27,500 nucleotides of DNA, taken from the IMG/VR virus record IMGVR_UViG_3300045993_000214, positions 1-27,500 of that record, one strand, 5' to 3'. Made by a program: the position numbers and the translations under genes. Shown here in pieces: positions 4,433 through 27,493 of the stretch. Numbering within the stretch: the first letter of the stretch is position 1; each line of letters begins with the position of its first letter. The notes beneath the pieces are model-generated. The model saw nothing but the letters and a program-made list of their open reading frames with translations. It was not told where the DNA came from and searched no databases. The stretch is from a virus.

Positions 4433-7400
4433 ATGACATCATCAACACGCCAAAATAGTCTTCTCGTAGCCGAAGATTGGAAAAAGATTTACACGACATT
4501 CCGCGAAGCGGACTTCCAGTCATATGACTTTGAAACGCTACGCAAGTCAATGATTGACTATTTGCGTTTGTACTATCCAGAAGATTTTAACGATTTCATT
4601 GAATCCAGCGAGTATATTGCACTTATTGACTTGATTGCATTTATGGGGCAAAGTTTAGCGTTTCGTACAGACTTAAATGCCCGCGAAAACTTCCTTGATA
4701 CAGCAGAGCGTCGCGATAGCATACTTAAACTGGCACGGTTAGTAAACTATAGCCCAAAGCGTAGTACATCAGCATCTGGGCTCTTAAAGATTACCTCAGC
4801 ATCAACGACTGAAGTATTGTTTGACTCAAACGGAATCAATCTTTCAAATTTAGTGGTATCGTGGAATGACACTACTAACAGCAATTGGCAAGAACAGATT
4901 CAACTTGTGTTAAATGCTACCCTCTTAAATAGCCAAACCATTGGCAAGCCTGGCAACTCACAGGTTATCAATGGTATTAAAACTGATGAATACACAGTAA
5001 ATATCACATCAAATACAATTCCAGTGTATCCATTCACTGCTGCGGTTAATGGCGCAGGGACACAATTTGAAGTTGTCAGCGCCACTACTATCAATCAATC
5101 ATACATTTACGAAGTAAATCCAAAACCAACGGGTAAATTTAACTTTTTATATCGCAATGACAATCAAGGCAATGCAAGTAATAATACTGGGTTCTTTTTA
5201 TATTTCAAACAAGGATCATTGCAGAGTGTTGATTTTAACCTAGCTGAATCAGTCCCAAACCGTGTGTTGAATGTTGGGTATAATAACATCAACAACACAG
5301 ATATTTGGCTGTATAATCTGACAGCAACAAATGTAGAAAATAACCTATGGAAATCAGTGCCAACTGTTGCGGGCACAAATATCATCTACAACAAGACAAC
5401 TGACCGTAATCTCTACCAAGTGAATACTAAAGCTGGTGATCAGATTGATTTAGTATTTGGGGATGGCTCGTTTTCAAATATTCCACAGGGCCCATATAGA
5501 ATACGATTCAGAACGAGCAACGCACAGACATATAAGATTACACCAGACGAAATGCAAGGGGTAACCATCTCACTAAACTATGTGTCACGAGCTGGTAATC
5601 TTGAAACTCTTACTGTAAGAGCCAACTTGACATACTCAGTAACAAATGCAACAGGAAGTGAATCATTGACTGACATTAAGCTGAAAGCACCACAACAATA
5701 CTATACGCAGGGCCGTATGATTACGGGTGAGGATTACAACATTGTTCCTTATACTGCGTTCAATAACATTCTCAAAGTTAAAGCAGTAAATAGAACCAGC
5801 AGTGGAGTCAGTAGATTCCTTGATATCAATGATTCCACTGGTAAGTACTCAAGTACAAACATATTTGGTGAAGACGGATATCTGTATAAGGAAGCCTTCA
5901 TTGATCAACTAAAGTTTACTAGCATTTCCTCAGCAAATATTAAACAGATTGTTGAGGATGATTTGACTACGGTGTTGGCATCAAAGGAAATACTGCACTT
6001 TTTCTATGATAAAAATAACTTTACTCGCCATAGCTGCCCCAATACAAACTGGTCGCTAGTGTCACTGAACACAAACGGAAGTACGGGGTACTTTACTAAC
6101 CCAACATCAACAACTCCATTGGCTGCGTTGCAGTTAGGCTATACCACGAGCGCAACACAGCAATATATACGATTGGGTGCAATTCTCAAGTTTAAGGCGC
6201 CAACTGGGTCCTACTTCAATGCACAAAATCAAATAGTGGTAGGAACACCATCCAACATTGGCGATAAGATGTTTATTTACGCCTCAGTACGCCAGGTCAT
6301 TGGTGATGGAACTAACGGTGGAAGTTTTACTTTTGTCAATGGTCAAGGACCTGTGACCTTATCGCAAAAAGTGCCAACAGGTGCAATCATTGCGGATTAT
6401 GGTATTATACCAGTATTTAAGAATAGCCTCCCACAGACATTGATTCAAGATATAGTTAATCGTATATCAGCACTAACAAGTTTTGGACTTAGATATGATC
6501 TCATTACAGAAGGATGGACTATAATTGAGGACCATAACTTAGATATCGCGAATAGTTTTAGTATAGCGTCGTCAGGCACTACCTCTGACTCAAGTTGGGT
6601 TGTCAGATTTAAATACAGCATTAATGTTGGTTACACTTTATACTGGCGTGGTTTGCGCTATATATTTGAGAGCGCAGCAGAGACGAAGTTCTATTTTGAC
6701 GAAAAAGTTAAAATCTATGATAGCAAGACAGCAACTATCATTCAAGATCAAATTAAAGTATTGAAGATCAATACTGGCCCAGATACTCTCCAACCACTTG
6801 GCATTGATTACTCTTGGTTCATTTACAAAAACATAGTGGATGTTGATGGCTATGAAAATCAAAACAAAGTGTTAGTAACATATACTGACACCAATGTTGA
6901 CGGTATCCCAGACAATCCTGATGTGTTTGACATCATAGTAAATCCTGACAACATCGTATTTTTTGAGCAACAGATAAACTATGATAGCTTTATTCTATAT
7001 GTCCCTGTAAATTTAACGCTAACTCCTATTCAGCTTTACTCAACACTAACTGAACTGCAAACACATCTGTCAGAATTCTTACCTGGACAGATATTTTATA
7101 CATCAAGTGAAAATGCATTTTGGGTTCTTAATACCAACGGAGTAACGGTAACTAGAGTGTATAACTATATTGCAAATGTTGGTCGCGGTAATTTATATTT
7201 CCAGTATAGACACAATAGCCCAAGCTATCGCCGTATTGACCCTAGCCCAAACAATATCATTGATTTGTATATGCTTACGAATACATACTCAACTGATTAC
7301 GGAAACTGGATTAGAGATACTACCAATACTTTGGTTGAACCAGACATGCCAACAACTGATGAGTTAAAGCTTGAATACAGCTCATTAGAAAACTACAAGG

Positions 7401-7846
7401 CTATTAGTGATACTATCATCTTTAATAGCGCAAAATTTAAACCATTGTTTGGAGCCAAAGCAGTTCCATCATTACAGGCAATATTTAAGGTAGTGAAGAA
7501 TGTAGCGTTTAATACTAGTGACAACGATATCAAATCAAGCGTTACCAATGCCATCAATACATACTTTGCAGTAGAGAATTGGGACTTTGGTGAGACTTTT
7601 TACTTCAGTGAGTTAAGTGCCTACCTGCACACTGCACTAAGTCCTAATGTGTCATCTATCATCATTGTACCAACTGCACCATCCTCACTCTTTGGTAGTT
7701 TATATCAGATCAATGCGGAATCCAATGAAATTTTAACGAGCGCAGCAACGATTGATAATGTAGAAATTATATCAGCTATTACAGCAGCACAGATTAATGC
7801 AAATTTTGCAGGTGTAAATAGTTCTATTACCTTTGGAACAACCTAA
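4433..7846 (+). CDS. 6: gp6-like baseplate wedge protein, enlarged
   Basis: Forms the continuous ring of the inner baseplate wedges and transmits the conformational change that starts sheath contraction. Residues 1-115 carry the gp6 N-terminal signature: a D-x-x-TLRKSMIDYLRLYYPEDF segment, ESSEYIALIDLIAFMGQSLA and FRTDLNARENFLDTAERRDS, followed by LARLVNYSPKRS. Residues about 420-490 (RMITGEDYNIVPYTAFNNIL and KVKAVNRTSSG) match the region conserved between gp6 and P2 gpJ-type wedge proteins. The last 200 residues contain the C-terminal dimerisation-like part with VENWDFGETFYFSELSAYL and VSSIIIVPT. At 1137 residues it is about 1.7 times the 660 of T4 gp6; the extra material appears to lie between the conserved middle and the C-terminal part (roughly 490-950) and is beta-rich with no recognised domain. 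The stop overlaps the start of the giant gene by one base. Confidence 0.88.
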   Translation: MTSSTRQNSLLVAEDWKKIYTTFREADFQSYDFETLRKSMIDYLRLYYPEDFNDFIESSEYIALIDLIAFMGQSLAFRTDLNARENFLDTAERRDSILKLARLVNYSPKRSTSASGLLKITSASTTEVLFDSNGINLSNLVVSWNDTTNSNWQEQIQLVLNATLLNSQTIGKPGNSQVINGIKTDEYTVNITSNTIPVYPFTAAVNGAGTQFEVVSATTINQSYIYEVNPKPTGKFNFLYRNDNQGNASNNTGFFLYFKQGSLQSVDFNLAESVPNRVLNVGYNNINNTDIWLYNLTATNVENNLWKSVPTVAGTNIIYNKTTDRNLYQVNTKAGDQIDLVFGDGSFSNIPQGPYRIRFRTSNAQTYKITPDEMQGVTISLNYVSRAGNLETLTVRANLTYSVTNATGSESLTDIKLKAPQQYYTQGRMITGEDYNIVPYTAFNNILKVKAVNRTSSGVSRFLDINDSTGKYSSTNIFGEDGYLYKEAFIDQLKFTSISSANIKQIVEDDLTTVLASKEILHFFYDKNNFTRHSCPNTNWSLVSLNTNGSTGYFTNPTSTTPLAALQLGYTTSATQQYIRLGAILKFKAPTGSYFNAQNQIVVGTPSNIGDKMFIYASVRQVIGDGTNGGSFTFVNGQGPVTLSQKVPTGAIIADYGIIPVFKNSLPQTLIQDIVNRISALTSFGLRYDLITEGWTIIEDHNLDIANSFSIASSGTTSDSSWVVRFKYSINVGYTLYWRGLRYIFESAAETKFYFDEKVKIYDSKTATIIQDQIKVLKINTGPDTLQPLGIDYSWFIYKNIVDVDGYENQNKVLVTYTDTNVDGIPDNPDVFDIIVNPDNIVFFEQQINYDSFILYVPVNLTLTPIQLYSTLTELQTHLSEFLPGQIFYTSSENAFWVLNTNGVTVTRVYNYIANVGRGNLYFQYRHNSPSYRRIDPSPNNIIDLYMLTNTYSTDYGNWIRDTTNTLVEPDMPTTDELKLEYSSLENYKAISDTIIFNSAKFKPLFGAKAVPSLQAIFKVVKNVAFNTSDNDIKSSVTNAINTYFAVENWDFGETFYFSELSAYLHTALSPNVSSIIIVPTAPSSLFGSLYQINAESNEILTSAATIDNVEIISAITAAQINANFAGVNSSITFGTT

Positions 7847-10800
7847 TGTCAGTACGCACAATTGATTTTTTACCTAACATATTTAAGACTACTTCTAACC
7901 AGAAGTTTTTAAGTGCAACTCTTGACCAGTTAGTATCTGAGCCTGACTTTAAAAAGATTAACGGATACATTGGGAGAAAGTTTGCGCCTACTTTTAAAAC
8001 AGCTGATAACTATCTATTAGAGCCAACGACGGACAGGGAGAACTATCAACTTGAACCAAGTGTTGTGGTAACTGATAAAGCCGATAACATTCAATTTTTC
8101 AGTAGTTACACTGATCTTTTGCAGCAAATATCTCATTATGGTGGGGTAGTTGATAATCAATCTAGATTGTTTAGCAATGAGGCATATTCGTTTGATGGCC
8201 AATTTGACTTTGATAAGCTAGTCAATTTTAGTCAGTATTACTGGTTACCCAATGGTCCAGACACAGTAGATGTGTACGCTGGTCAAGTTGAAAATGTTAA
8301 AACATTTGCGGTTGATAGAAATCTAACCGACAACGCATACGAGTTAAGCAGCTTTGGTTCCAGCCCAAATCCAGACATCATTCTTGCCCGCGGAGGAACG
8401 TATCAGTTCGTCGTAAATCAACCAGGTTATAAATTCTGGATTCAAACTGTGCCAGATGTGTCTGGCACCACTCTGACACAAAAGAACATCAGCCTGCGTA
8501 ATGTATTTGGAGTAGTTGATAATGGGTCAGAGAACGGCATAGTGACATTTAACGTTCCGCAAAAGAATGCCCAAGATCACTTCGTCAATATGCCTGTGGT
8601 AAGACCAATTGACAATAATGCAAACAGTTTTGTTGATTTTGCAACGACATTAAAATTTAATCAAATTGATAATCAGTTAGTGCAAACTATGGTTGAGAAC
8701 TATGGAAGCATTGACGGGATATCTGACGCTAATGTCCTCAATGGCAAATATCTTGTTTTTATTGCCAATGATGTTGCTGATCCAGACTGGACAGAAGAAG
8801 GTGTTTATGCGCTTAGTGGGTGGGGCACTGATCTATATGATGAGGGCCAGCTCATAACTGATAATCAGCGAACAGGGATTTGGCAAATACAAATTAGTGA
8901 TACTGGTAATGGTGATCAACTTATAAACTTGGTATGGATTAAACCAATCCCACTTGAGCAAAAAGTTATCATCAAGTCTGGTTTAACCAATGCCAATAAG
9001 GAATTTTATAAAGTGGCGACGGGCGATCTAATTGAGGTCCCACTTATTACTGCTTTCCGCGACACATTTTACTATGTTGATAGCACTGATCAAAGATTCT
9101 TTGGTCGCATCAGAGTAGTTGATCAGTCTGGATATAACTTAGATATCAATGACGAAATTTTGGGGAAAAAGACGTATACTAGTCCAAACGGCATCGTATT
9201 TACCAATGGGTTAAAGATAAAATTTGATACCGCAGTGGTGCAGAGTGAATATGCCAATAATGAATATTATGTTGAGGGTGTTGGCACTGGCATACGATTA
9301 GTTAAAGTATCATCACTTATAACCCCTGAACTTACATCAAGTTCGTCATCAGTTGCATTTGATATATACGGATTCAGCGACGAATTTTATGATCAAATTT
9401 TAAATGGTCCACTGACTCCAGACTATATTACTATTAACCGTGCCAGCATTGATGGCAATGCTTGGTCTAGAAGTAATAGGTGGTTTCATTCTCAAGTCAT
9501 TGAAGCAACAGCAACATATAATTCAAGTATTCCTAATTTTGACGAACTGCAAAGAGGGTCCCGACCCATTATTGAGTTTAATGCTGACTTGCTGATATAT
9601 AACAACGGAAGAAGATCACGGCACAGTGTAGACATCATTGATTTTACGGTCAGTGATGCATTTATGAAGATGGAGGGGACTGAAGTTCTCTTTGTTGATG
9701 CAGATCACGACGGCAAAGACGATCTTATAACTTACTTTGAAGAAGCAAATTTTAAAGACGGTATGACTGTTATCTTTGCTGGCGATACAGATCCTATTGT
9801 TAGGAATCAAATATACCAGGTCAATGTGTTCCCTATCAATGGAAAACAAATGGTGCATTTAACTCCTATTATAGGTGGACAAATATCTGAGTATGATACA
9901 GTTATTCCTACCTCTGGCATTACAGTTAAACTTGATCCCGTGCCAGCTGGTTTTGATTCGACATTGACATTAAACCCATCTGCCCGTAAAATCTCAATGG
10001 GCAATGGTTTGGGGCTAATCAGTCTGGATGGGGTACTTGGTGCATCAACTGGATTGATATTAGGAAATACATTCTGGTTCAACGGAACATCCTGGGTACT
10101 TGCACAGAAAAAAACTGGGCTTAATACTGCGCCCAAGTTTGATATTATTGATTCCAACTTTGCAAGTTTCAGCGACACTTCCATTTACGTAAATTCATCA
10201 TTTACTGGAAGTAAAATCTTTTCGTATAAAGTTGGCGGTGGTACCACTGATACGATATTGGGTTTTCCTTTATCATATAGAAACTTTAATAATGTAGGTG
10301 ACATACAATTTGAGAACACCTATGATTCAGACACATTCAGTGAGCTAGTTGGATTGCAAACAGTAAGCCATAAAATCAACACTGGGTTTATGGCTAAAAT
10401 CTCTAGCAATGCAAGCATTGAAAAAATTAACATTTGGACCACCAAGCAGGAGCCAACTAAACAATATCAGATTATATCTAAATTGTGTGATGGAAAGACA
10501 TCATATTTTGAAATAGATATTTTGCCAGACGCTTATACTCTTATTCCATCGTTGAAAGTTTTCTTAAACAATAGATTACTAAGCATATTGGAATATCAGC
10601 CGCTTAAAGTTGGTATACGGAATGCTATAAAAATCAATACTGCTTTAGCGTTAAACGATAAAGTAGACATCTTCATCTATTCTTCAATACAAGTATCCAA
10701 GTTAGGGTATTACGAGATTCCACCTAATTTAGAATTTAATGCTTTAAACGATAACTTTACAGAACTGACATTAGGGCAATTCAGAAATCACCTGGCAATT

Positions 10801-13800
10801 GCCGCAAACAACAGCACTGACGTTGCTGGACAAGTGCCAGGCGCCAGCAATCTTCGTGACTTAGATGTTAAAACACGCGGCGGAAGCATACTTCAACATA
10901 GCGCACCAACTATCTATAGTTCATTATTCTTAATTGATAAGGATCTGAACTTCATTGATAGTATAACACGAGCACAAAAAGAGTATTCACAGTTTAAGAA
11001 TCGTTTTTTAGAATCCTTTGCCTCAGTGGTCAATGCAGGAATAACTGATCCATCAGTTGGTGTTGATTTTATATTGCACCAGATGAATGCGATAAAAAAT
11101 AGTTCAACTCCCTGGTATTACAGTGATATGGTTCCATACGATCAAAATCGTAGCTCTATCAAATACACTGTGCTAGATCCTGAGATTACTGAATATGAAA
11201 TAGATGCTATTTTTAATGACACGATTCTAAGCAACAAGGCAGTGCTAGTCTATATCAATGGAAAGCAGCTTGTCAAGGATATAGATTTCTATTTTGAACA
11301 AACCAGGCCGTCAGTTGTGTTTAGTAATGCCCTTGATTATAATGATGAGATTGAGATAAGGATCTATCACAATACAGATGGATGTTTCATACCAGAGACG
11401 CCAACTAAACTTGGATTATATCCTAAGTATATTCCAGCACAATATGTTGATACCACGTATCAAACTCCTACCTCTGTAATCCGTGGTCACGACGGAAGTA
11501 TTACTATAGCATTTGGTGACATGCGTGATGCATTGCTATTTGAGCTTGAGAAGCGTATCTATAACAATATTAAGATAGCCTACAGCCCGTTAAACTTTGA
11601 TATCTATAAGCATATCCCTGGCAAGTTCCGTACTACGGATTACAGTAAAACAGAATATGATCAGATTGTAACTCGTTGCTTTCTGTCGTGGATCAGCAAT
11701 AACAAGATTGACTATGCGACCAACCAATGGTTCTCAAGTAATAATCCGTGGTCTTGGACTTACAATAGATTTAAAGATGTGCTGACAAAGAACTATCTGC
11801 CAGGCAGCTGGAGAGGTATTTACAGATATTTTTATGATACTGATGCACCAAATGAGCGCCCATGGGAATGTTTAGGTATGTCAGTAATGCCAAACTGGTG
11901 GGTTGATACCTATGGGCCAGCACCATATACTGGTGGTAATGCAGTGTTATGGAATGATTTGGAGAATGGTATTATTCGTGATGGGCCGCTAGCTGGAACA
12001 TATCCCCAATACGCAAGACCAGGTTTAAGTAAAGTAATACCAGTAACTGATTCTGGAGAGTTGCGCCCACCATCAGAGTTTCTTATTACTGCATTCAATA
12101 GTTCAGATTTTGCCGGATCGTTCTCTATTGGGGACGAGGGCCCAGTTGAATCAGCGTGGCGCAAGAGCAGCGATTATCCATTTGCCGTCCAACAAGCTAT
12201 TGCATTGATGAAACCAGCAATATATTTTGGTCAGCTTGCAAATATACAGGATTACAAGAAGACGGGTGGAGTAAATCAGTATATCATAACAGATACAAAT
12301 CAACGTATCACACCAAAAGACTTTAAAATTAATGGAAATAGTACCATACTTCCTGGTGTTACAGAACGTAACGCTGGGTATGTAAATTGGATAGCTGATT
12401 ACTTACGATATAACGGAATTGATCCAGTTACAAAGATATCGTCATACCTGGATAATATCAGCGTTCGGCTTGGATACAAGGCGGCAGGATTTACAGATCA
12501 ACAATATTTGAAAGCACTGGCTGAACAAACTAGTCCTGGAAGTATAAATGAATCTATCGTTATCCCAAATGAAAACTTTAAGATTCATTTGCATAAATCT
12601 TCGCCAATGGGTAGGTTAATTTACAGTGCAGTTATCATTGAGAAAACCGTCGCTGGTTATACAGTCAGTGGATACAGCTCAGATCATCCTTACTTTACGA
12701 TTGTGCCAAGCGACCCTAACTCTAATCAATATGCAATATCTGTGTCAGGGACAACTGGTGTCATTTACAACGATTATCAACCAGTCAAAGTGTCCATTCC
12801 ATACGGATATGAGTTTAAAAACAAGCAACAAGTGGTTGACTTTCTAGTAAGCTATGGAAGATACTTAGTGACGCAGGGTTTCGTATTTGAAGAATTTAAC
12901 CAAGAACTTCAAGAAACAAAGAACTGGATTTTAGCAGCAAAAGAATTTTTAACCTGGACACAGCAAGGTTGGACACCAGGTAATATCATTGTGTTAAGTC
13001 CTATCCTTAATAAGATTAGTTTAGTATATGCTAATGCAGTAGTTGATGAAATCAGCAATGCCCCCAATGGTTCTCGCATCATTGATGTTGGCTTTAATAC
13101 TGTTAGAAGTAGTATGTTCAGTGCGGTTAGAGATGGAATTAATTTTGAATTAACGACATTACCAGAGATTACCATTGGGATGGTAGATTTAAACTTAGTG
13201 CAGTATGAACACGCATTAGTATTTGATAATCAAACTATTTTCAGTGACATCATCTATAAACCAGAGTTGGGGAACAGGCAATATAGAATAAAGCTAATAG
13301 GCAACAAAACTAGCAATTGGGCTGGCCAGTTAAATCCACCAGGGTTTGTATTTAACAACTCAAATATTGCAACCTGGACAGTTGGTAAGGATTACCGCAA
13401 GGGTGACATTGTATCCTATAAATCATTGATGTATGCTGCACTCCAAGACATTGATGCCAGTGATATCTTTAACTTTGGACACTGGAAGCAAATCAACTCA
13501 TCTACCTTCAAGACTGGGTTACTACCTAACTTAGCCTATAACGCTAAAAAGTTTGAAAACATATATGACGTTGATAATCAGATTGCTGATAACAGCATCA
13601 ACAAACACAGCAATAGCCTAATAGGGTATAGTGAACGCAACTATCTGACAGATTTAAACCTTAATTCAACGTCACAGGCTAAGTTTTACCAAGGTTATAT
13701 TAAAGACAAAGGAACAAAGGATTCTATTAGTGCTTTATCGTCTGCCACATTTAACAATATGCTAGGTGAGCTTTCATACTATGAAGAATGGGCATTCCGT

Positions 13801-16800
13801 GTTGGTGAGTATGGAGCACTTGATACTAACAAGTTTGTTGAAGTTCAATTGTCAGACAGCAAATACCTTTACGATCCAATATCAATAGCATTTACCAACA
13901 CTGGCATTGATGAAGTGACTGATGCTACAGTAATCAATGAGAACAGCAACACGTTATACAAGCGCCCAACTATACTTGATACAAACATTTTTGAAACTAG
14001 GTCAGCAGAATCCTTATATGAAAATGATATTCAAAGTGCTGGGTATGTAAATCTCAATGACATTGATGCAACCATTTTTGATATGCGAGATTATATAGAG
14101 CTATCTGGACTTGTATCTAAGATTTACAATGATTTTAAGATTTGGGTCGCCAAAGATGTTGATCAAGATTGGAACGTATATAAAGTAGATCAGACAAGCT
14201 CTATTGCGATAGAGATCAACTATTCTCTTGACAGTAGGGCCACGATTACTACTGCTGAAATTCACTCCTTGGTTGTGGGAGATATTTTTGCTATTAGAAA
14301 CTTCTCAACTGAAGTTGACGGATTTTACAAAGTGTTGCGTGTAGATGGATTGCACGAAGTATTTGTAGCTATCCCGTCAGCATTAGAAACTGTGATGATT
14401 AAAACTCCGTCACTCAGTGGAGGCGGAACTATATTTAAGTTATCCAGCTTACGATTTAACAAGATTACTGATATAGTAAAATACACACCAGCACTAGGAT
14501 GGCGCCCAACTGATAAGGTATGGGTTGACAATAACGAAGGTGATCACAAGTGGAAAGTATACAACAAAGTTGAACCTTGGACCTATACATCTGAAATATT
14601 AGGGTTCCAATCTACCCCACAAGCACATTACGGACAACAAGTAGCCTGCAACCCATCAGGTGAAATTCTTGCTGTATCGCAACCGGGTAGCAATTATACT
14701 GATAACATTAAACTGTTGATTAAAGAAGCCAATGGAGAATTTATAGAAACTGCTGGCATCTTTCCAGAATGGGAAAGCCTCATTTCTTATCAGATTGGTG
14801 ATATTATAACATACTTAGGTAGTGTATATGTAGCTATATCACAAACTACCATTGGGGCAGCATTTAACTTAACAAACTGGCAGCTAGTGCAGAACACAGT
14901 ATTTGGAAATGCTATCGCATTAACCAATTCAACAATAGTAATATCTGGTGAGAATCCTAATGCCAATGAATATTTTGTATTGATATACTCGTTAGCTACG
15001 TCTGGCAATGTAGCAATTACTAAACAACAGCGAATCAATGGGCCAAGTGGATTTGGGAAAACCATAGCCATTAGCTCGGATGGGATCTGGCTGTTTGTTT
15101 CAGAGACATCTACTGCCACAATACACATATACAATAAAGATCTCAATGGACATTTTAGTGCCGTACAAACATTATCTGGAGGTATAGACAGTGGATACGG
15201 GTTTGCACTAGATACTAATAGTGATGGATCAATGCTAGTTGTTGGTGCCCCGAATACAGATAACGCATTAGGCTCCAATGCAGGATTTGCGTATGTCTAT
15301 TCTAGAACTAATCTAACATTTAACGAAGTTGCTCTATTGCCTCCGCCAGCAATAATGTATGAAGGGCATTTTGGCTATAGCGTAAAACTAACTGCAGATA
15401 GTATCTTTATCAGTGAGCCTGACTATCAAGAAACAGATTATACACGAGGTGTCGTGTATCGTTATTCATTAGCCACATTTGAACCTATTGAGACGATCAG
15501 AAAACCATATTCCAATGTTGTAGAACGATTTGGCACTGGAATATCATTCTCTACTACAACAAAATCATTGATTGTATCTAGCCAAGGTGCTCCTACTCTA
15601 AATGAAACCTTACTGGACGGGAAGATATTTTATCTAGACGGAAAGACAACGACAATACTTGATACAGTTAAAAATACTGGTGCAGTGTATGTATTTGACC
15701 TACTTAGTGATTATTCTGGAAACAAATATTGCTTTAACCAACAGTTGGATGATGCTGGTATAAAGGTTGGAGACAACTTTGGTAGTTCAGTCGCAGTAGC
15801 TAACGGCAATATCTTTGTTGGTAGCCCACTAACTGATACACACGGTACAGACACTGGAAAAGTATTATGGTTTTCAAATAAGAACCAAGAAGCTGGCTGG
15901 AAGCTAACACGACAAGAGACTAGCAAGGTTGATCTAGACAATGTCACCAAGCTCTATTTGTATGATAGCAAGTCAGAGACCGTGCTAGTTAACCTAGATT
16001 ACATTGACCCAGCCAAGGGAAGAATCCTTGGCGTGGCAGAGCAAGATATTACTTACAAGACTACATTTGATCCAGCTAATTACAACTCTGGGACTAGTTC
16101 AACGGTAGCCATAGATACTAGCTATCATTGGGGAGCAGCACAAGTTGGGCAAGTATGGTGGAACCTAGATACTATTCGTTATATTGATTACGAACAAGAT
16201 ACGCTAACTTACCGTATTAAAAACTGGGGTCGTCTTTTCCCGGGCGCTACTGTAGAAGTATGTGAGTGGGTTGGGTCTAGCCAACTACCGTCGCAGTATG
16301 CTGGCGATGGTACGCCAAAATACGCTAATAACGATGCATATGTTGAAAACTTATCTGTTGATCCAACAACTGGTATTATTAGGTCATTATATTACTACTG
16401 GGTTAAAAATAAAACTTCAGTACCAACACTGCCATTTAGAAAGATAAGTGTTAAAACTATTGAAGAGTTGATAACTTCGCCATCTACACAAAACATCCCA
16501 TATACTACGATGTTACAAAGTAATGCATTATCTGTAATCAACGCCGCCCAGTATATCAATGCTAACAGAACTATATTGCATATAGATTATGCTATTACAG
16601 TAAATCAAAATCTGATTCACAACGAATACGATTTGGTGCAAGAGGGGTCAGATGATGAAATACTTCCAAATAAGATTGTTAACAAGTTCATTGACAGTTT
16701 AACTGGTGCTGACTATTTTGGTAATACGGTTCCTGACTATAAACTAACAACCCCCAATCGTTATGGTATTGCAATACGTCCAAGGCAAACAATGTTTGCC

Positions 16801-19464
16801 AATAGACTAATGGCAGTTAAAAACTTTGTAATCTATGTAAACTCTGTGTTTGCACAAGTGCCTATTGCAGAAGAATTTGATATATCGTCATTGTATCAAG
16901 CAGACCCAGTACCAACACTTTGGGATCCGTTGTCCCTCAATGTATCTGTTAACTCACTTATTGAAAGATCATACTTAGATGTAACACAGCTAACTCTGGG
17001 CCAGCAGATTTTAGTGACACAGGACTCAAATTATAACAATCAATGGACAATATATGAAGTTCAATCAGACAAGAGTTTTTCGTTAGTTAGAACCCAAACG
17101 TATAGGACTACTGATTACTGGTCAATGATTGATTGGTATGATACAACCTACGACCCAACAGTCAAACCAACTTATACTGTTGACACCATTAAAGATATGA
17201 GCAAGTTAACATTGGCCAGTGGAGATGTTGTCAAGGTAAGAAACAATGGCTCAGGTCAGTTTGTAGTATATCGTATCAACACAGATTTAACTGCAACCTT
17301 AGTTGGAGTACAGAACGGCACAATACAACTTAGCGATGCATTATGGTCTCATAACACGCATCAAATTGGATGGGACAATGATAGTTTTGACACAGTAAAG
17401 TATGACCGTAATCCAACTATTGAACTGCGTAATATTGTGTTGGCACTTAAAAATAACATCTTTATCAATACCTTGAACGGACAGTTCAACAAATTGTTCT
17501 TTGTTATGCTAAACTATATTCTGTCAGAGCAGAGAATGATTGATTGGGCATTCAAAACAAGCTTTATATCTATACTACACAAGCTGCGTAAGTTAGAGCA
17601 ATTCCCCAACTACATTAAAGACAATCAATCATTCTATGAGGATTATATAAATGAAGTTAAACCATACCGCACAAAAATTCGTGAGTATGTGATTGACTAC
17701 TCAGGATTTGATAATAGTGATCTACACGTGACTGACTTTGATTTACCGTCATACTTTGATACTGACTTGAATGTATGGCGTAGTCCAAACGGAGAGCATG
17801 CCCGCGATGAAGTTATCTTATCCACCCAGCCTCAATATGCGGACTGGTACTATAACTTTACCCATACATACGAGATTGGCTATGTGCAGATTGCCTCACC
17901 TGGCTATGGTTATCACGCCGTCCCTAAATTAGAAGTAGTGGGTGGCGGAGGTTCTGGTGCGGTGCTATCAGCATTAGTTGATTTTTATACTGGTAGCATT
18001 GCTAAAGTTATTGTAGTTAAGCCAGGACAAGGCTATACATCTACTCCAACGATACGAGTTCTAGGTGATGGTATTGATGAGTATGGAGAGCAAACATTTA
18101 GATGTTATCCAGTTATGTTCAATGGTAAAACACGGTCATTTACTACGACGCTGAAATTTGATCGCATATCATATTCAGAAGTTGGAACTTGGTCACCAAA
18201 TACTAATTACACAATGGGTGATCTAGTTTCATATGCTGATAACATTTATGCCGTAGTGCAGGATCTACTCAGTGATCCAGAATTTAATCCGCAAGATCTA
18301 GCTTCTTACTCGTTTGTTAGCTCTATTGCAGAGTATTCAGCAGCTGATAGAACAATGTCACTATATTCCCCAACAACAGGTATGCCACCCAAGAGCTTGG
18401 CACGATTATTTACTGGCACAGAGAACGAAAGTAATCGTATTGATGGTTCAAAGTTCTTACCACCAATCACTAACTCAAATGGGACGCTAACTTATCCAGA
18501 TGATCCATACTTGGATACACAGATTGAAAGCTTCTTTAACGATTTGCAGCTTGGACAACGAGCTGAGGATATCGTCATTGACGGATCAAGCAATCTAACT
18601 GATATATACGGGCTTGGTGCATATGCAGAGGGAGACGGAGTTCCACTTACTGATCCAACAGCAGTAGTTAACTCTGGGGTACATATTCCGTCGTTTATTG
18701 ATATCTACAATAGTCACGCCCCTGCAGAGTTGTTGCCTGGCCGCATTTACGATACGCTAGATATAAAAGTATTCACAATCCGCTCATTGGACAATCCAAC
18801 AGATAATCCAATTGGATATCGCATTAGCAAAACAATGGGCGATGATTTATCTGCAACGTCGTGGGAATTCCGCCGTATTTCAGCAGCAGCTACAACGACG
18901 TTGGCAAGAGACTTAAACATAACTGACACTGCGATTTATGTTGTAGATGTTACGAAGTTACCAGTGCCAAATCCAGCATTGTTGCATCCTGGTGTTATAT
19001 ACATCAATGGTGAGAAGATTACTTACTATGCTGTTGATACTCATAATAACGCATTGAGACAAATCCGTCGTGGCGTTTGGGGAACTGGGGCACCACTTAA
19101 ACACGGATTGGGGGCATTGGTCGTTGACGCCAGTGTAGAGCAAAAGATTCCTGGGGATGCAGCAAATGAAAGCTGGTTAAAGGTGAGCGCAATTCCGGAC
19201 CCAGCAAATCCATCGCTACCTAGTTACCCTGCAGATGGAACTGGCATATTTGGCGCTGCCGTAGCATCCGCCCTTCAAGCGACAATTCAAGCAGAGTTTT
19301 TAGCTAAATCTCCATCATACCTACCTTGGTTACCTGGTCAATCTGGCATCTACACTGATCCAAACTTGCACAATACGCGATTTGATGACGACGGATTCTT
19401 AGAGTTTAATACTCCAACACATCCGTTTGACATCGATCCTTTTGATTCATATGTAGCCACATAA
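7846..19464 (+). CDS. Giant modular baseplate/virion structural protein (3872 aa)
   Basis: A single uninterrupted frame encoding a protein of roughly 430 kDa, probably peripheral baseplate. The N terminus (RTIDFLPNIFKTTSNQKFLS, then NFSQYYWLPNGPDTVDVY near residues 125-145) resembles large structural proteins of cyanophage-like T4 relatives. Further modules in order: two beta-domains with a 'V-x-(I/L)-N-(N/G)' core (about 900-945, 1130-1175); an aromatic segment ERPWECLGMSVMPNWWVDTY (about 1335); three CBM5/12-like segments (about 1840, 2306, 3446); a seven-repeat FG-GAP-like propeller (2261-2681); a conserved helical stretch around 3220-3280 with SEQRMIDWAFKTSFI and YINEVKPYRTKIREYV; a Gly-Tyr/Gly-rich beta pair (3350-3411); and a GEKITYY/RRGVWGTGAP module (3680-3770). 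Its position after gp6 is that of T4 gene 7 (1032 aa), but I see no gp7 signature. No signal peptide is seen. It ends in tandem TAA stops. Structural role is well supported; the exact role is inferred. Confidence 0.8.
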   Translation: MSVRTIDFLPNIFKTTSNQKFLSATLDQLVSEPDFKKINGYIGRKFAPTFKTADNYLLEPTTDRENYQLEPSVVVTDKADNIQFFSSYTDLLQQISHYGGVVDNQSRLFSNEAYSFDGQFDFDKLVNFSQYYWLPNGPDTVDVYAGQVENVKTFAVDRNLTDNAYELSSFGSSPNPDIILARGGTYQFVVNQPGYKFWIQTVPDVSGTTLTQKNISLRNVFGVVDNGSENGIVTFNVPQKNAQDHFVNMPVVRPIDNNANSFVDFATTLKFNQIDNQLVQTMVENYGSIDGISDANVLNGKYLVFIANDVADPDWTEEGVYALSGWGTDLYDEGQLITDNQRTGIWQIQISDTGNGDQLINLVWIKPIPLEQKVIIKSGLTNANKEFYKVATGDLIEVPLITAFRDTFYYVDSTDQRFFGRIRVVDQSGYNLDINDEILGKKTYTSPNGIVFTNGLKIKFDTAVVQSEYANNEYYVEGVGTGIRLVKVSSLITPELTSSSSSVAFDIYGFSDEFYDQILNGPLTPDYITINRASIDGNAWSRSNRWFHSQVIEATATYNSSIPNFDELQRGSRPIIEFNADLLIYNNGRRSRHSVDIIDFTVSDAFMKMEGTEVLFVDADHDGKDDLITYFEEANFKDGMTVIFAGDTDPIVRNQIYQVNVFPINGKQMVHLTPIIGGQISEYDTVIPTSGITVKLDPVPAGFDSTLTLNPSARKISMGNGLGLISLDGVLGASTGLILGNTFWFNGTSWVLAQKKTGLNTAPKFDIIDSNFASFSDTSIYVNSSFTGSKIFSYKVGGGTTDTILGFPLSYRNFNNVGDIQFENTYDSDTFSELVGLQTVSHKINTGFMAKISSNASIEKINIWTTKQEPTKQYQIISKLCDGKTSYFEIDILPDAYTLIPSLKVFLNNRLLSILEYQPLKVGIRNAIKINTALALNDKVDIFIYSSIQVSKLGYYEIPPNLEFNALNDNFTELTLGQFRNHLAIAANNSTDVAGQVPGASNLRDLDVKTRGGSILQHSAPTIYSSLFLIDKDLNFIDSITRAQKEYSQFKNRFLESFASVVNAGITDPSVGVDFILHQMNAIKNSSTPWYYSDMVPYDQNRSSIKYTVLDPEITEYEIDAIFNDTILSNKAVLVYINGKQLVKDIDFYFEQTRPSVVFSNALDYNDEIEIRIYHNTDGCFIPETPTKLGLYPKYIPAQYVDTTYQTPTSVIRGHDGSITIAFGDMRDALLFELEKRIYNNIKIAYSPLNFDIYKHIPGKFRTTDYSKTEYDQIVTRCFLSWISNNKIDYATNQWFSSNNPWSWTYNRFKDVLTKNYLPGSWRGIYRYFYDTDAPNERPWECLGMSVMPNWWVDTYGPAPYTGGNAVLWNDLENGIIRDGPLAGTYPQYARPGLSKVIPVTDSGELRPPSEFLITAFNSSDFAGSFSIGDEGPVESAWRKSSDYPFAVQQAIALMKPAIYFGQLANIQDYKKTGGVNQYIITDTNQRITPKDFKINGNSTILPGVTERNAGYVNWIADYLRYNGIDPVTKISSYLDNISVRLGYKAAGFTDQQYLKALAEQTSPGSINESIVIPNENFKIHLHKSSPMGRLIYSAVIIEKTVAGYTVSGYSSDHPYFTIVPSDPNSNQYAISVSGTTGVIYNDYQPVKVSIPYGYEFKNKQQVVDFLVSYGRYLVTQGFVFEEFNQELQETKNWILAAKEFLTWTQQGWTPGNIIVLSPILNKISLVYANAVVDEISNAPNGSRIIDVGFNTVRSSMFSAVRDGINFELTTLPEITIGMVDLNLVQYEHALVFDNQTIFSDIIYKPELGNRQYRIKLIGNKTSNWAGQLNPPGFVFNNSNIATWTVGKDYRKGDIVSYKSLMYAALQDIDASDIFNFGHWKQINSSTFKTGLLPNLAYNAKKFENIYDVDNQIADNSINKHSNSLIGYSERNYLTDLNLNSTSQAKFYQGYIKDKGTKDSISALSSATFNNMLGELSYYEEWAFRVGEYGALDTNKFVEVQLSDSKYLYDPISIAFTNTGIDEVTDATVINENSNTLYKRPTILDTNIFETRSAESLYENDIQSAGYVNLNDIDATIFDMRDYIELSGLVSKIYNDFKIWVAKDVDQDWNVYKVDQTSSIAIEINYSLDSRATITTAEIHSLVVGDIFAIRNFSTEVDGFYKVLRVDGLHEVFVAIPSALETVMIKTPSLSGGGTIFKLSSLRFNKITDIVKYTPALGWRPTDKVWVDNNEGDHKWKVYNKVEPWTYTSEILGFQSTPQAHYGQQVACNPSGEILAVSQPGSNYTDNIKLLIKEANGEFIETAGIFPEWESLISYQIGDIITYLGSVYVAISQTTIGAAFNLTNWQLVQNTVFGNAIALTNSTIVISGENPNANEYFVLIYSLATSGNVAITKQQRINGPSGFGKTIAISSDGIWLFVSETSTATIHIYNKDLNGHFSAVQTLSGGIDSGYGFALDTNSDGSMLVVGAPNTDNALGSNAGFAYVYSRTNLTFNEVALLPPPAIMYEGHFGYSVKLTADSIFISEPDYQETDYTRGVVYRYSLATFEPIETIRKPYSNVVERFGTGISFSTTTKSLIVSSQGAPTLNETLLDGKIFYLDGKTTTILDTVKNTGAVYVFDLLSDYSGNKYCFNQQLDDAGIKVGDNFGSSVAVANGNIFVGSPLTDTHGTDTGKVLWFSNKNQEAGWKLTRQETSKVDLDNVTKLYLYDSKSETVLVNLDYIDPAKGRILGVAEQDITYKTTFDPANYNSGTSSTVAIDTSYHWGAAQVGQVWWNLDTIRYIDYEQDTLTYRIKNWGRLFPGATVEVCEWVGSSQLPSQYAGDGTPKYANNDAYVENLSVDPTTGIIRSLYYYWVKNKTSVPTLPFRKISVKTIEELITSPSTQNIPYTTMLQSNALSVINAAQYINANRTILHIDYAITVNQNLIHNEYDLVQEGSDDEILPNKIVNKFIDSLTGADYFGNTVPDYKLTTPNRYGIAIRPRQTMFANRLMAVKNFVIYVNSVFAQVPIAEEFDISSLYQADPVPTLWDPLSLNVSVNSLIERSYLDVTQLTLGQQILVTQDSNYNNQWTIYEVQSDKSFSLVRTQTYRTTDYWSMIDWYDTTYDPTVKPTYTVDTIKDMSKLTLASGDVVKVRNNGSGQFVVYRINTDLTATLVGVQNGTIQLSDALWSHNTHQIGWDNDSFDTVKYDRNPTIELRNIVLALKNNIFINTLNGQFNKLFFVMLNYILSEQRMIDWAFKTSFISILHKLRKLEQFPNYIKDNQSFYEDYINEVKPYRTKIREYVIDYSGFDNSDLHVTDFDLPSYFDTDLNVWRSPNGEHARDEVILSTQPQYADWYYNFTHTYEIGYVQIASPGYGYHAVPKLEVVGGGGSGAVLSALVDFYTGSIAKVIVVKPGQGYTSTPTIRVLGDGIDEYGEQTFRCYPVMFNGKTRSFTTTLKFDRISYSEVGTWSPNTNYTMGDLVSYADNIYAVVQDLLSDPEFNPQDLASYSFVSSIAEYSAADRTMSLYSPTTGMPPKSLARLFTGTENESNRIDGSKFLPPITNSNGTLTYPDDPYLDTQIESFFNDLQLGQRAEDIVIDGSSNLTDIYGLGAYAEGDGVPLTDPTAVVNSGVHIPSFIDIYNSHAPAELLPGRIYDTLDIKVFTIRSLDNPTDNPIGYRISKTMGDDLSATSWEFRRISAAATTTLARDLNITDTAIYVVDVTKLPVPNPALLHPGVIYINGEKITYYAVDTHNNALRQIRRGVWGTGAPLKHGLGALVVDASVEQKIPGDAANESWLKVSAIPDPANPSLPSYPADGTGIFGAAVASALQATIQAEFLAKSPSYLPWLPGQSGIYTDPNLHNTRFDDDGFLEFNTPTHPFDIDPFDSYVAT
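13366..13500 (+). other. CBM5/12-like segment 1 within the giant protein
   Basis: Residues about 1841-1885 read ATWTVGKDYRKGDIVSYKSL followed by MYAALQ and a closing GHWKQI. The order W, Y-x-x-GD-(I/V)-V-x-Y, Y-x-A and final W is that of small chitin/carbohydrate-binding modules of families 5 and 12, which bind polysaccharide through exposed aromatic residues. Binding is inferred from the pattern only. Confidence 0.55.
14626..15889 (+). other. Seven-repeat FG-GAP-like beta-propeller within the giant protein
   Basis: Residues about 2261-2681 contain seven repeats of an FG-x-x-(V/I)-A start, a hydrophobic strand, a (V/I)-(G/S)-x-P-like turn and a strand ending in (V/I)-Y. Repeat starts: HYGQQVACNPSGEILAVSQP, FGNAIALTNSTIVISGE, FGKTIAISSDGIWLFVSE, GYGFALDTNSDGSMLVVGAP, HFGYSVKLTADSIFISEP, RFGTGISFSTTTKSLIVSSQ and NFGSSVAVANGNIFVGSP. 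Seven copies is the number needed to close a propeller of the integrin-alpha type. A CBM5/12-like segment interrupts it between repeats 1 and 2. Confidence 0.65.
14761..14895 (+). other. CBM5/12-like segment 2, inserted in the propeller
   Basis: Residues about 2306-2350: FPEWESLISYQIGDIITYLG, then SVYVAISQTT and a closing LTNWQLV. It has the same aromatic and GD spacing as the other two copies. It falls between the first and second FG-GAP-like repeats, so it would project from one face of the propeller. Confidence 0.6.
17893..18078 (+). repeat. Tandem GxGY-x-x-xP beta repeat in the giant protein
   Basis: Two adjacent copies of a pattern: SPGYGYHAVPKLEVVGGGGS (residue 3351 on) and KPGQGYTSTPTIRVLGDG (near 3394-3411), separated by GAVLSALVDFYTGSIAKVIV. 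The pattern GxGYxxxPxI-x-V-x-G-x-G followed by an Ala-rich strand is one I associate with structural proteins of large marine myoviruses. Function is unknown; a beta-rich spacer is likely. Confidence 0.55.
18181..18327 (+). other. CBM5/12-like segment 3 within the giant protein
   Basis: Residues about 3446-3494: VGTWSPNTNYTMGDLVSYAD, then NIYAVVQD and a closing YSFVSS. The W, Y-x-x-GD-x-V-x-Y and Y-x-V spacing matches copies 1 and 2, but the final Trp is replaced by an aromatic pair, so this copy is more diverged. Confidence 0.5.
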
Positions 19465-21986: not shown

Positions 21987-24584
21987 ATGTCATACAATAT
22001 AACATTAACAAGCGGTCAAACACTAGTCAATATTGATGACGGTAAGTTTGACGATACGCATACCAGTCTAAACTTATTTGGTAAAAACTTTGCTGGTTAC
22101 GGAGATCTGCTTAACGAAAACTTTGTTAAGCTATTAGAAAATTTCTCAATGAATTCTGCACCACCGAATGCATTACAAGGGCAATTATGGTGGGATAGTA
22201 ATAATGGACTATTAAAAATTAAAACTACTGGGGATTGGAAGATAGTTAGCGGCCCCACCGCCTCAGCAATACAACCGAACTTATCAACCATTGGTGATAC
22301 TTGGTGGAATACGGATACATCACAGCTAAATGTTTATAACGGGTCTGACTGGACAACAGTTGGCCCAGTTTATACAGCCGCCCAAGGAAAATCAGGTCCA
22401 TTCGCACTATCAATAGCAGACTTAACAGCAAATCTTCATACAGCCATTGGATTTTATATCGGCGGAACAGTAGTAGGTATCTTCAGCAAAGATACTACAT
22501 ATACGACTAGCCAAATTGCTGGCTTTTCAACCATCAAACCTGGATTTAATCTTCCAGTAGGAACTAGTCAGTATTATGGAAATTCAGAAAACTCATTGAG
22601 TTTAGGTGGTGTATTAGCAGCAAACTATATTAGATCTGATGTCGATAGCGGTACATCACACAAGTTTAGCATCAATAATACAGACGGATTGCATGTTGGC
22701 ACACAAGGAACTGAACTTGATTTTTCAATCAAAGTACAAAATAACGCAGTAAGATTATCAAGCCATACCAGTGGTCAAAATACAGAGTTTTATGTTACCC
22801 TTGCTGGGGTTCCATCGCTCGCACTGCGGTTAAACGGATCCACTGGATTAGTGACGGTTGCTGGTGATCCAGTAGAAGATCTTGGCGTGGCTACAAGACA
22901 TTATGTTGACAATACATTAGCAACTGCGGGCAGTCAATGGATCAAAATAGATGGGTCAACTCCAATTACTGGAAATTTAGTGCCGGCTGGTAATAGTGTT
23001 CAATCTCTTGGGTCAGCATTGAATCCATTTAATGAAATTCGTAGCACATCATTCATTGGTAATAGTATTACCGCAGCGAGTGGTATTTTTAACTTCGCTA
23101 CAGTAGCATTGACCCCGTTTAACGATGCATCAGCAACATCTAAACATTATGTTGATACTGTGTTATCAATTCAAAATGATCAACAGACTGCATACACTGA
23201 TTTGACTGTTGGAAATTTGATAGGTGGGGCTCCTGGAAATATGTCAACATTAGGTGCATTGGCGGCAGCATTAAACGGTAGCACAACATTTGGGGTCGAT
23301 ACCAATAATGCATTGTTAGAATTGGCTCCAAAATTTAGCCCGTTTCTTGATGGTATTCCTACTGCATTAACGGCACCGTCAACGGAACCGGCGTCGGGCC
23401 GACTTGCAACAACACTATATGTTAAAACAGCAATAGATTCAGAGCATAATGATATGCATAATACATTATCAAACTATGCACAACTTGATAGCCCGTCATT
23501 CAGTGGAACCCCAGTCTTGTCTAATCCACCGAGCAATAATAATATTCCAAATGCTATTGCTTCTACAAATTTTGTAGTCAGTGAATTAACCAACAGTATG
23601 AATGGACTTGTAACATCATTGAATGAATTTGCACGACTTGACAGCCCAGGATTTATTGGATACCCATCAGCGACGACAGCTTCGTCATTGCCAGTAACTG
23701 ACAGCACCGATAAACTAGCAACAACTGCCTTTGTTAATGCTAAAGTAACTGATGCCATTAATGCAATTACCACCTTACCGACCTCGATTGGCCAATTAAC
23801 AAACGCACGATTAATTGGTGGAAGTAGCTTCAACGGAACTGCTGATATTACTGTTCAATCAGCAACCAGTGGATTCACTGTTTCTGGTGGTAAATTAAAT
23901 GTTGGTGCATCTACTGCGTCACAGGCAGCAATGAATATCGCAGTTGGAACAACCCCGCAATCTAATATTACCGCAGACGGTGATTTGTGGGTAGATGGCA
24001 ATGGGCTTAATGTAAGATTGGGTGGTGCGCCAAAAACAGTATGGCACTCTGGGAATTTAAACATAACTCAGTTTACAGCGCCAAAGGCCAATCAAGTAGT
24101 AGTCGGAACAACGGGTGTCGGAGTTTATAACGTAGTTTACAACCTCGGCGATAACGTGTATTCAAGTTCATCAGTTCAACTTAACCCAGCAAATGGTGCA
24201 ATAAATGCTGGTATTTTGACATTAAGCAGTAATGCAACCATTGGTGGAGATTTAAATGTTACGGGTGAAATTGCTGGTGGGTTGTCTGACGATAGACTTA
24301 AGACTAGGTTAGGCAACATTGAAAATGCATTGGATAAAATTTGCACACTAACTGGTTTTTATTATGAAGCAAACGACAAGGCACAATCATTAGGGTTTGA
24401 TACTAAACGACAGGTTGGTGTTAGTGCTCAAAAGACGCAAGAAACAATGCCTGAACTTATTCGCCCAGCGCCCGTGGATCCAGAATATATGACTCTGCAA
24501 TATGAAAAATTTGTCCCGTTTATTATTGAGGCCATTAAGGAATTGCGTGCTCAAGTAGATGAAATTAAGAGTGTGTTAAAATAA
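21987..24584 (+). CDS. Tail fibre protein 2 with C-terminal Peptidase S74 chaperone domain
   Basis: Largest fibre (865 aa). Residues 1-140 repeat the attachment module: LFGKNFAGYGDLLNENFVKL, LQGQLWWDS and GDTWWNTDTSQLNVYNGSDW. A shaft module around residues 233-310 ends DLGVATRHYVDNTL and recurs in fibre 3. Three tandem lambda/T4 fibre-type repeats follow near residues 452, 502 and 554, ending RLATTLYVK, AIASTNFVV and KLATTAFVN. Residues 767-865 form an intramolecular chaperone: SDDRLKTRLGNIENALDKIC, then LTGFYYE, VGVSAQKTQE and YEKFVPFIIEAIKELRAQVD. Ser767 and Lys772 have the spacing of the Ser-Lys dyad that self-cleaves S74 domains after trimer folding, so the mature fibre should lose about 99 residues. 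AAGGA at 21972-21976 precedes the ATG. It closely resembles fibre 3 at the N terminus and differs completely at the C terminus. Confidence 0.87.
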   Translation: MSYNITLTSGQTLVNIDDGKFDDTHTSLNLFGKNFAGYGDLLNENFVKLLENFSMNSAPPNALQGQLWWDSNNGLLKIKTTGDWKIVSGPTASAIQPNLSTIGDTWWNTDTSQLNVYNGSDWTTVGPVYTAAQGKSGPFALSIADLTANLHTAIGFYIGGTVVGIFSKDTTYTTSQIAGFSTIKPGFNLPVGTSQYYGNSENSLSLGGVLAANYIRSDVDSGTSHKFSINNTDGLHVGTQGTELDFSIKVQNNAVRLSSHTSGQNTEFYVTLAGVPSLALRLNGSTGLVTVAGDPVEDLGVATRHYVDNTLATAGSQWIKIDGSTPITGNLVPAGNSVQSLGSALNPFNEIRSTSFIGNSITAASGIFNFATVALTPFNDASATSKHYVDTVLSIQNDQQTAYTDLTVGNLIGGAPGNMSTLGALAAALNGSTTFGVDTNNALLELAPKFSPFLDGIPTALTAPSTEPASGRLATTLYVKTAIDSEHNDMHNTLSNYAQLDSPSFSGTPVLSNPPSNNNIPNAIASTNFVVSELTNSMNGLVTSLNEFARLDSPGFIGYPSATTASSLPVTDSTDKLATTAFVNAKVTDAINAITTLPTSIGQLTNARLIGGSSFNGTADITVQSATSGFTVSGGKLNVGASTASQAAMNIAVGTTPQSNITADGDLWVDGNGLNVRLGGAPKTVWHSGNLNITQFTAPKANQVVVGTTGVGVYNVVYNLGDNVYSSSSVQLNPANGAINAGILTLSSNATIGGDLNVTGEIAGGLSDDRLKTRLGNIENALDKICTLTGFYYEANDKAQSLGFDTKRQVGVSAQKTQETMPELIRPAPVDPEYMTLQYEKFVPFIIEAIKELRAQVDEIKSVLK

Positions 24585-25558: not shown

Positions 25559-27493
25559 ATGGCATACAATATTACATTAACCAACGGTCATAACTTAGTA
25601 ACTGTTGCTGACGGCACAACCGAAAGCAACTTTACAAGCTTAACGCTGATTGGTAAAAATTTCGCAGGTTACGGCGCTTTCTTAAACGAAAACTTTGTAA
25701 AGCTGCTTGAAAATTTTTCAAATAGCACGGCACCATCCAACCCATTGGCAGGTCAACTTTGGTGGGATTCTGTTAATAAGTCCCTTAAGGTATACTCAGC
25801 CAACGTTTGGAAAACAGTATCAAGCTCAACAGCGGCATCAACTAGTCCAGCTGGGGCAATCACTGGAGACTTATGGTGGGATACATCAGCAGGCGGCGGG
25901 CAATTAAAAGTATGGGATGGTACAGCCTGGGTAGTTATTGGACCAGCATTCACCGCAGTTATGGGTCAGACAGGTATCCTAGCTAAAACAATAGCTGAAT
26001 CTGGTAATGCATCAGCAGTCCACATCGTTGTATATTTTTATGTAAATAACACGGTCGTTGCTATCCTTAGTAAGGACCCATCGTTTGATGTATCATCAGA
26101 GCCAGGGTTTACCACTATTAATCCAGGTTTCAATCTATCATCAACAAACAATCTTGCATATTATGGTAATGCAAACAATGCACTAAGCTTAGGTGGTGTT
26201 TTAGCAGCAAACTACCTAAAATCAAATATTGACCAAACTACGCAAGGTGCCTTTACTGTGCAGGGCGGCGGTGGTTTAACTGTTGGTGCTGGTGGTGATT
26301 TTAATGTAAGCACTACCACAACAGCAGTCAATGTAGTTAGTGCAGCATCTGGTAAAGATATGAAATTCTGGGTTAATGTATCTGGAATCTCTAAGAACCT
26401 ACTTACATTAAATGGAACGTCTGGTGCAATCACCGTCTTAGCTGACCCAACCACAGATATGGGAGTAGCTACAAGACAATATGTTGATAATGTATTAACG
26501 GGATCTGGTAGCACAGTATTGAAACGTGATGGAACAAATACTATCACTGGGGTCATTGTTCCAGATGGCAATGGAACACGTAATTTTGGATCAGCCAGCT
26601 CAGCTTTTAACAATATCTATGCAGTTCACCATGTTGGTAATTTGACTGGTACCGCAGATAATGCACTAGCATTGAATGGAGTTCCATATACAAGCTATGC
26701 TAGAACTGATGCAGCACCAACATTTTTAACAAATGCTGGATTAACATTGGGTACAGGCAGCGATTTTACGATTGATGTCACAGCCTCACCAAATGCAGTC
26801 AACTTAAAAAGCAACACACAGAATAAGAGTATCAATATCAACGTAAATCGTGGTGGTACACCAACAACTGCGATTGCAATTGATGGGACCACTGGATTAG
26901 CTACGGTGGTTGGAGATCCAACATCTTCGCTTGGTATTGCAACACGCCAGTATGTTGATTCACATTCGGGTATCGTTAATTTAACCTCAGTAGCGCAAAA
27001 TATTTTACCAAGCCAGAATCTAACATACTCCATTGGTTCAGGTACAATGAAATGGACTGACATTTGGGCGACCACGTTCCATGGGAATGCTTCAACAGCT
27101 AACTACGCTGACTTAGCAGAACGCTTTGCATCTGATCAACCATACAGCCCTGGTACAGTTGTTGAACTTGGTGGCGCCGCAGAAATCACCAAATCGGTTA
27201 CAGAACTGAGTGATAATGTATTTGGTGTGATAAGTACGAAAGCAGCATATTTAATGAACGCAGGTGCAGGAACTGATACGACACACCCACCAATCGCAAT
27301 TCAAGGTCGTGTGCCAGTCCGTGTCATTGGCGTGGTAAGAAAGGGTGATCGTTTAGTTAGTGCTGGTAATGGTTTAGCTCGTGCAGCATCAAGAAGTGAA
27401 ATTACATCGTTTAATGTGATTGGTCGTGCTCTTGAAGATAAACTTACCAGTATTGAAGGAACAGTAGAAGCAATAGTGAAGTTGAATAGCTAA
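25559..27493 (+). CDS. Tail fibre protein 3 (paralogue with YADLAERF C-terminal domain)
   Basis: Third paralogue, 644 aa. Residues 1-140 carry the attachment module nearly as in fibre 2: LIGKNFAGYGAFLNENFVKL, LAGQLWWDS, GDLWWDTSAGGGQLKVWDGT. The shaft has two copies of a module of about 75 residues that starts GLT-(V/L)-G-x-G-x-DF and ends (V/I)-ATRQYVD, at about 237-310 and 391-467, each followed by a short 'G-S-x-x-x-F/W-x-x-I-(Y/W)-A' turn segment (NFGSASSAFNNIYAVHHVGN; YSIGSGTMKWTDIWATTFHG). Residues 516-644 repeat the C-terminal domain of fibre 1: YADLAERFASDQPYSPGTVV, VFGVISTKAAYLMN, IAIQGRVPVRVIGVVRKGDR and a last strand VEAIVKLNS. So fibre 3 combines a fibre 2-like front with a fibre 1-like end, suggesting recombination between paralogues. 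It has its own ribosome site and candidate late promoter. Tail-fibre identity is well supported; the target is unknown. Confidence 0.85.
   Translation: MAYNITLTNGHNLVTVADGTTESNFTSLTLIGKNFAGYGAFLNENFVKLLENFSNSTAPSNPLAGQLWWDSVNKSLKVYSANVWKTVSSSTAASTSPAGAITGDLWWDTSAGGGQLKVWDGTAWVVIGPAFTAVMGQTGILAKTIAESGNASAVHIVVYFYVNNTVVAILSKDPSFDVSSEPGFTTINPGFNLSSTNNLAYYGNANNALSLGGVLAANYLKSNIDQTTQGAFTVQGGGGLTVGAGGDFNVSTTTTAVNVVSAASGKDMKFWVNVSGISKNLLTLNGTSGAITVLADPTTDMGVATRQYVDNVLTGSGSTVLKRDGTNTITGVIVPDGNGTRNFGSASSAFNNIYAVHHVGNLTGTADNALALNGVPYTSYARTDAAPTFLTNAGLTLGTGSDFTIDVTASPNAVNLKSNTQNKSININVNRGGTPTTAIAIDGTTGLATVVGDPTSSLGIATRQYVDSHSGIVNLTSVAQNILPSQNLTYSIGSGTMKWTDIWATTFHGNASTANYADLAERFASDQPYSPGTVVELGGAAEITKSVTELSDNVFGVISTKAAYLMNAGAGTDTTHPPIAIQGRVPVRVIGVVRKGDRLVSAGNGLARAASRSEITSFNVIGRALEDKLTSIEGTVEAIVKLNS

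Follow-up and report, generated by a model that had tools for sequence, protein, structure and literature searches.

Genetic context of the giant gene

The window, i.e., the whole 27.5-kb stretch of DNA that was analysed, is a virus record from a large, uncultured phage, and its gene order starts with a 622-aa protein, followed by a gp5-like hub (1898-4024), gp25 (4024-4383), and a gp6-like wedge protein (4433-7846). The next gene (7846-19464, plus strand) encodes a giant baseplate or virion protein of 3872 aa, which matches PHROG 10938 and is placed by synteny at the gp7/VrlC position; downstream lie a 202-aa protein and then fibre-like genes. As for T4 gp7, the giant gene is found between gp6 and the distal baseplate and fibre genes. 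Its product is syntenic with the giant virion proteins of PA5oct, SCTP-2, Phosso, Atu_ph07, and Hallingskeid, as well as with those of Vibrio phage 2.275.O, RaK2, and GAP32. Of these, the PA5oct counterpart has a record that bears an ESI-MS/MS note, and this proteomics note, together with synteny, supports the setting in a baseplate protein that had been proposed in a preliminary description of this DNA. At the sequence level, a profile search of the carrier core against solved chains gave no match up to E 1, and hence no homology to the gp7 core was found.

Several other features of the window are worth recording. Three CBM_5_12-like modules are present in the giant protein, at 13375-13500, 14770-14895, and 18190-18315 (residues 1844, 2309, and 3449), one of which is the propeller insertion described below. 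Two fibre-like proteins (21987-24584 and 25559-27493) carry a Peptidase_S74 chaperone domain and match Peptidase_G2 below threshold. T4 late promoters (TATAAATA) number 0 within the window, versus 3 expected by chance.

Seven FG-GAP_2 repeats in the giant protein

The preliminary description had reported seven FG repeats in a row, characteristic of an integrin-type propeller, at 14626-15889. Exactly seven [FY]G repeats are indeed found, at residues 2262, 2353, 2403, 2451, 2509, 2562, and 2645 of the giant protein (YG at 2262 and 2451). Between residues 2219 and 2709 the motif occurs 7 times, whereas 5000 composition shuffles yield 0.75 occurrences on average and never more than 5. Moreover, a blade HMM made from homologues only, with the window sequence left out, gave exactly seven domain matches on the 3872-aa protein, all within this region, with i-Evalues from 1.5e-10 to 0.011. 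The weakest of these is blade 2 (0.011), which is lost in a joint search of all proteins, leaving six. The seven repeats are contained in residues 2246-2684 of the 3872-aa ORF; the coordinates first given were essentially right, although they omit an N-terminal strand that probably closes the ring (14581-14598) and take in a CBM5/12-like insertion (about 14770-14895).

All seven blades are recognized by the HMM and by AlphaFold2 and succeed one another on the plus strand. Blade 1 (14629-14760, residues 2262-2305) is separated from blade 2 (14902-15042, residues 2353-2399) by a loop containing the CBM_5_12-like insertion (14770-14895, about residues 2309-2350), whose Pfam match (E 0.0039) is below the cut-off for the region alone and whose model confidence is low. 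Then come blade 3 (15052-15177, residues 2403-2444), blade 4 (15196-15339, residues 2451-2498), blade 5 (15370-15501, residues 2509-2552), blade 6 (15529-15747, residues 2562-2634), and blade 7 (15778-15876, residues 2645-2677), the last having three strands of its own.

With respect to known families, the Pfam FG-GAP_2 profile (PF14312) scores 27.6 bits on the whole protein and 48 bits on the region, above its curated cut-off of 23, and it matches 28 of the 29 members of the propeller alignment. No match to classic FG-GAP (PF01839) is seen at the propeller region; the sole, weak match to that family in the window falls outside the propeller, on a single DADHDGKDD loop at 9676-9732 (about residue 617). 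In a profile search of the PDB, the best match is integrin alpha-4 (E 5.8e-10) and other integrin alpha chains come next, while the propeller of phiKZ gp131C (4GBF) is absent from the matches up to E 1, so that sequence homology to gp131C was not detected.

Predicted fold and ring closure

AlphaFold2, run on residues 2219-2709 with 29 sequences, returned a confident all-beta model (mean pLDDT 84.2, pTM 0.84), in which the low-confidence part is limited to residues 2311-2348 of the CBM5/12-like insertion (pLDDT <50) and one short loop. This model has 28 propeller strands, or seven times four: blades 1 to 6 have four strands each and blade 7 has three, the remaining one being an N-terminal strand. 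The N-terminal strand (14581-14598, residues 2246-2251, strand 28-33 of the model) is spaced from the first YG as the outer strand of other blades is from the following FG, and because it stands in the same relation to this YG, it was assigned to blade 7 as its probable outer strand. Strand order and spacing would fit a 1+3 closure of the last blade.

The top Foldseek match of the model is integrin alphaM. Foldseek also aligns whole seven-bladed WD40 chains, such as 8x8n_B, which we take to be G-beta (TMt 0.68); query-normalised TM-scores are about 0.5, with sizeable rmsd. Together with the strand count, these alignments of the predicted model point to a closed ring. The opposite reading, in which the repeats are beta-sandwiches in an open series rather than blades of a closed propeller, could draw on the weak HMM match of blade 2 and on the CBM5/12-like insertion that parts this blade from blade 1, but it appears extremely improbable given a confident model with seven times four strands and top structural matches to integrin and to seven-bladed WD40 proteins. 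That the region is predicted to fold as a seven-bladed, integrin-like FG-GAP_2 beta-propeller is well supported by repeats, profiles, AlphaFold2, and Foldseek, in agreement with the fold initially put forward. The likeness to integrins holds for the fold, the profile match, and the top structural match, but does not extend to the DxDxDGxxD calcium loops of integrins, which are missing from every one of the 62 slot contents examined (see below).

A single hairpin turn with alternative contents

The propeller is bordered on both sides by conserved strands of the carrier, seen as strands in both models: an upstream arm, KVWVD..WKVYNKVEPW (14515-14580, residues 2224-2245), in which W2236 and V2238 are 100% conserved, and a downstream arm, the WKLTRQ strand (15898-15915, residues 2685-2690), in which W2685 is 100% conserved. 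Relatives were gathered from IMG/VR with the core region as query, and the sample is biased to the close kin of the window; a scan of viral contigs with the propeller sequence itself as query gave no relatives. In MAGs of assorted names, a genome profile search additionally detected six phage-like contigs; the names are too inconsistent to give a host.

The slot between the two arms was compared in 62 ORFs, including that of the window, that have both flanks in one frame. In most of them the slot contains the propeller, and the anchor-to-anchor distance then ranges between about 400 and 1479 residues, the window having 446. Homologues carry insertions that cluster in the loops of blades 3, 4, and 5, namely 14-250 aa after window residue 2435 (strand 3-4 loop of blade 3), others near residues 2492/2500, and 89-273 aa after residue 2541, the last in most homologues. 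The window's own insertion, between blades 1 and 2, is the CBM5/12-like one.

In other relatives, the same site is occupied differently. L087 and the identical pair L080/L092 have a YHYH domain in the slot instead of the propeller (109.5 and 103 bits); YHYH domains have been reported as fusions to tail or baseplate proteins and are predicted metal-dependent hydrolases (PMC7824862). In L093 the slot is empty (WGVYQYDAVDNSWTVIRNQ), and a model of this site has two strands, 203-210 and 215-221, with a four-residue turn between them; Foldseek matched this empty-slot carrier model to no fold convincingly (TMq about 0.1). Finally, in L020, L022, and L025 the gene stops at the slot, just past which a second ORF begins, and in L019 the first ORF likewise stops at the slot, the next ORF having a different start. 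At the break in L020 (13180-13220), L022, and L025, AAGGATAAATACATA stands just ahead of the ATG of the second ORF; the corresponding sequence in L019 is TAGGATAAATACATA. A further ORF, L037, is broken within the propeller region, while the near-identical L041 and L042 are intact; this may be an assembly error. No FG blades were found in any of the giant proteins of eight isolated phages. That the giant protein at the gp7/VrlC position carries the propeller as a cassette, set into a single beta-hairpin turn, is well supported.

In a tree of the core, three changes of propeller state are counted (bootstrap 5-95% range 3-3) and a single clade of all propeller rows is rejected (p-AU 3.2e-47), the YHYH and split-gene lineages being sisters. 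The simplest history would have the propeller gained once, then lost in L093 and either lost or replaced in the YHYH/split lineage. In addition, L063 shares 77-79% identity with L049/L075 over the cassette versus 63-65% over the flanks, and L023 and L024 have flanks that are about 91% identical versus 42-66% around the blade-3 insertion. These values come from few pairs, for a carrier whose identity itself varies from 0.41 to 0.75, and would fit recombination and module replacement.

Possible roles of the propeller

A closed seven-bladed propeller could be plugged into the hairpin turn of the carrier as a self-contained unit, since the two ends of a closed ring meet and a tight turn can accommodate it without disturbance of the carrier. 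The carrier part of the giant protein would then build the baseplate, with the propeller acting as a solvent-exposed accessory platform whose loops bear extra domains, CBM5/12-like in the window and larger modules in relatives. Such an exposed, accessory role is favoured because the cassette is dispensable, can be replaced by another domain, and tolerates insertions.

A docking function, in which the propeller would be an internal structural domain whose partner is another virion protein (a fibre or the neighbouring wedge) rather than the host, was also considered. The fixed position of the cassette between carrier strands conserved on both sides would suit this role, as would the annotation of the stand-alone FG-GAP propeller of cyanophage S-TIM5 as a virion structural protein. 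However, relatives in which the propeller is missing, replaced, or interrupted keep intact flanks, which argues that assembly does not need it, and large, variable loop insertions are ill-suited to a buried interface. Docking is hence seen as rather unlikely.

Another site of potential importance is a conserved loop of blade 6 (15607-15663, residues 2588-2606): across 48 aligned cassettes, D2591 and D2598 are invariant, while T2602 and D2606 are conserved at 96% and 83%, respectively. This Asp loop may be a site for a ligand or a metal. The two invariant Asp could also be taken as a sign that the propeller has a lactonase- or hydrolase-like enzymatic activity against polymers of the envelope or capsule, as could a weak match to the Lactonase propeller family in 3 of the 29 alignment members and the predicted hydrolase nature of the YHYH domain that replaces the propeller. 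Nonetheless, the Lactonase match is minor beside that to FG-GAP_2, and outside the Asp loop the most strongly conserved cassette columns are mostly Gly, aromatic, Pro, or other structural residues, making an enzymatic function improbable.

Propellers of other phages are informative in this regard: the seven-bladed propeller of phiKZ gp131C (PDB 4GBF) and the five-bladed one of phi11 gp45 are located at the baseplate or tail periphery, with a shown or proposed role in receptor binding (PMC4901313, PMC6115969). Taken with the dispensability, replaceability, and insertion tolerance of the cassette, these precedents make display for host or glycan binding the most likely role. On balance, the propeller is likely to be a display domain, dispensable and exposed, binding host or matrix glycans either itself or through the domains it carries. 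It may bind the host surface or extracellular glycans either directly or via the inserted domains, and the cassette could be swapped, diversified, or lost with changing host pressure, which would link it to host range.

More tentatively, the giant protein at the gp7 position could have a dedicated display slot, consisting of one beta-hairpin turn that exchanges whole domains and is filled by a propeller with variable passengers or by a YHYH domain, empty, or the site of a gene break; this slot would give the baseplate a host-recognition layer of its own, apart from the tail fibres. Fibres and separate receptor-binding proteins are usually credited with host recognition in phages; a domain slot in a core baseplate protein would, if true, amount to a second recognition layer. 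The naturally empty, swapped, and split slots offer ready comparisons for the function of a plug-in domain. Furthermore, an annotation is gained for a domain in giant proteins for which "virion structural protein" is mostly the only label.

Comparison with known systems

Integrin alpha chains, the closest solved relatives by profile, have an FG-GAP propeller that resembles the one described here in its seven FG repeats and its seven-bladed fold. By analogy, the extra domain between blades of the phage propeller recalls the integrin alpha-I domain. Unlike in integrin alpha, however, the phage propeller is devoid of DxDxDGxxD loops, lies mid-chain in a baseplate protein, and matches FG-GAP_2 rather than classic FG-GAP.

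Regarding the carrier, the position of the giant gene after gp5, gp25, and gp6 is that of T4 gp7 and of VrlC, to which it may be related. VrlC has been reported in place of gp7 in pelagi- and cyanomyophages (PMC7029224).

Among phage propellers, that of phiKZ gp131C is similar in having seven blades in a tail or baseplate protein. Yet gp131C and phi11 gp45 are separate proteins, with a receptor-binding function or a peripheral place on the tail, whereas the propeller of the window is a cassette within a giant protein at the gp7 position. Matches in a viral library include FG-GAP proteins of uncultured phages and of S-TIM5. Cyanophage S-TIM5 (AEZ65754) and Sinorhizobium phage Phosso (gp129) possess stand-alone FG-GAP_2 propellers with seven blade matches each, plus an eighth, truncated, C-terminal one in S-TIM5. 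In contrast to the window, both are separate genes of about 400 aa, and no FG blades are detectable in Phosso's own giant protein.

No paper joining FG-GAP with the phage baseplate, or with a bacteriophage propeller, was found in the literature searched. Baseplate propellers and phage FG-GAP proteins are both already known; what is new, as far as the literature and databases searched show, is an FG-GAP_2 propeller that forms an exchangeable cassette in a single hairpin turn of a giant protein at the gp7 position.
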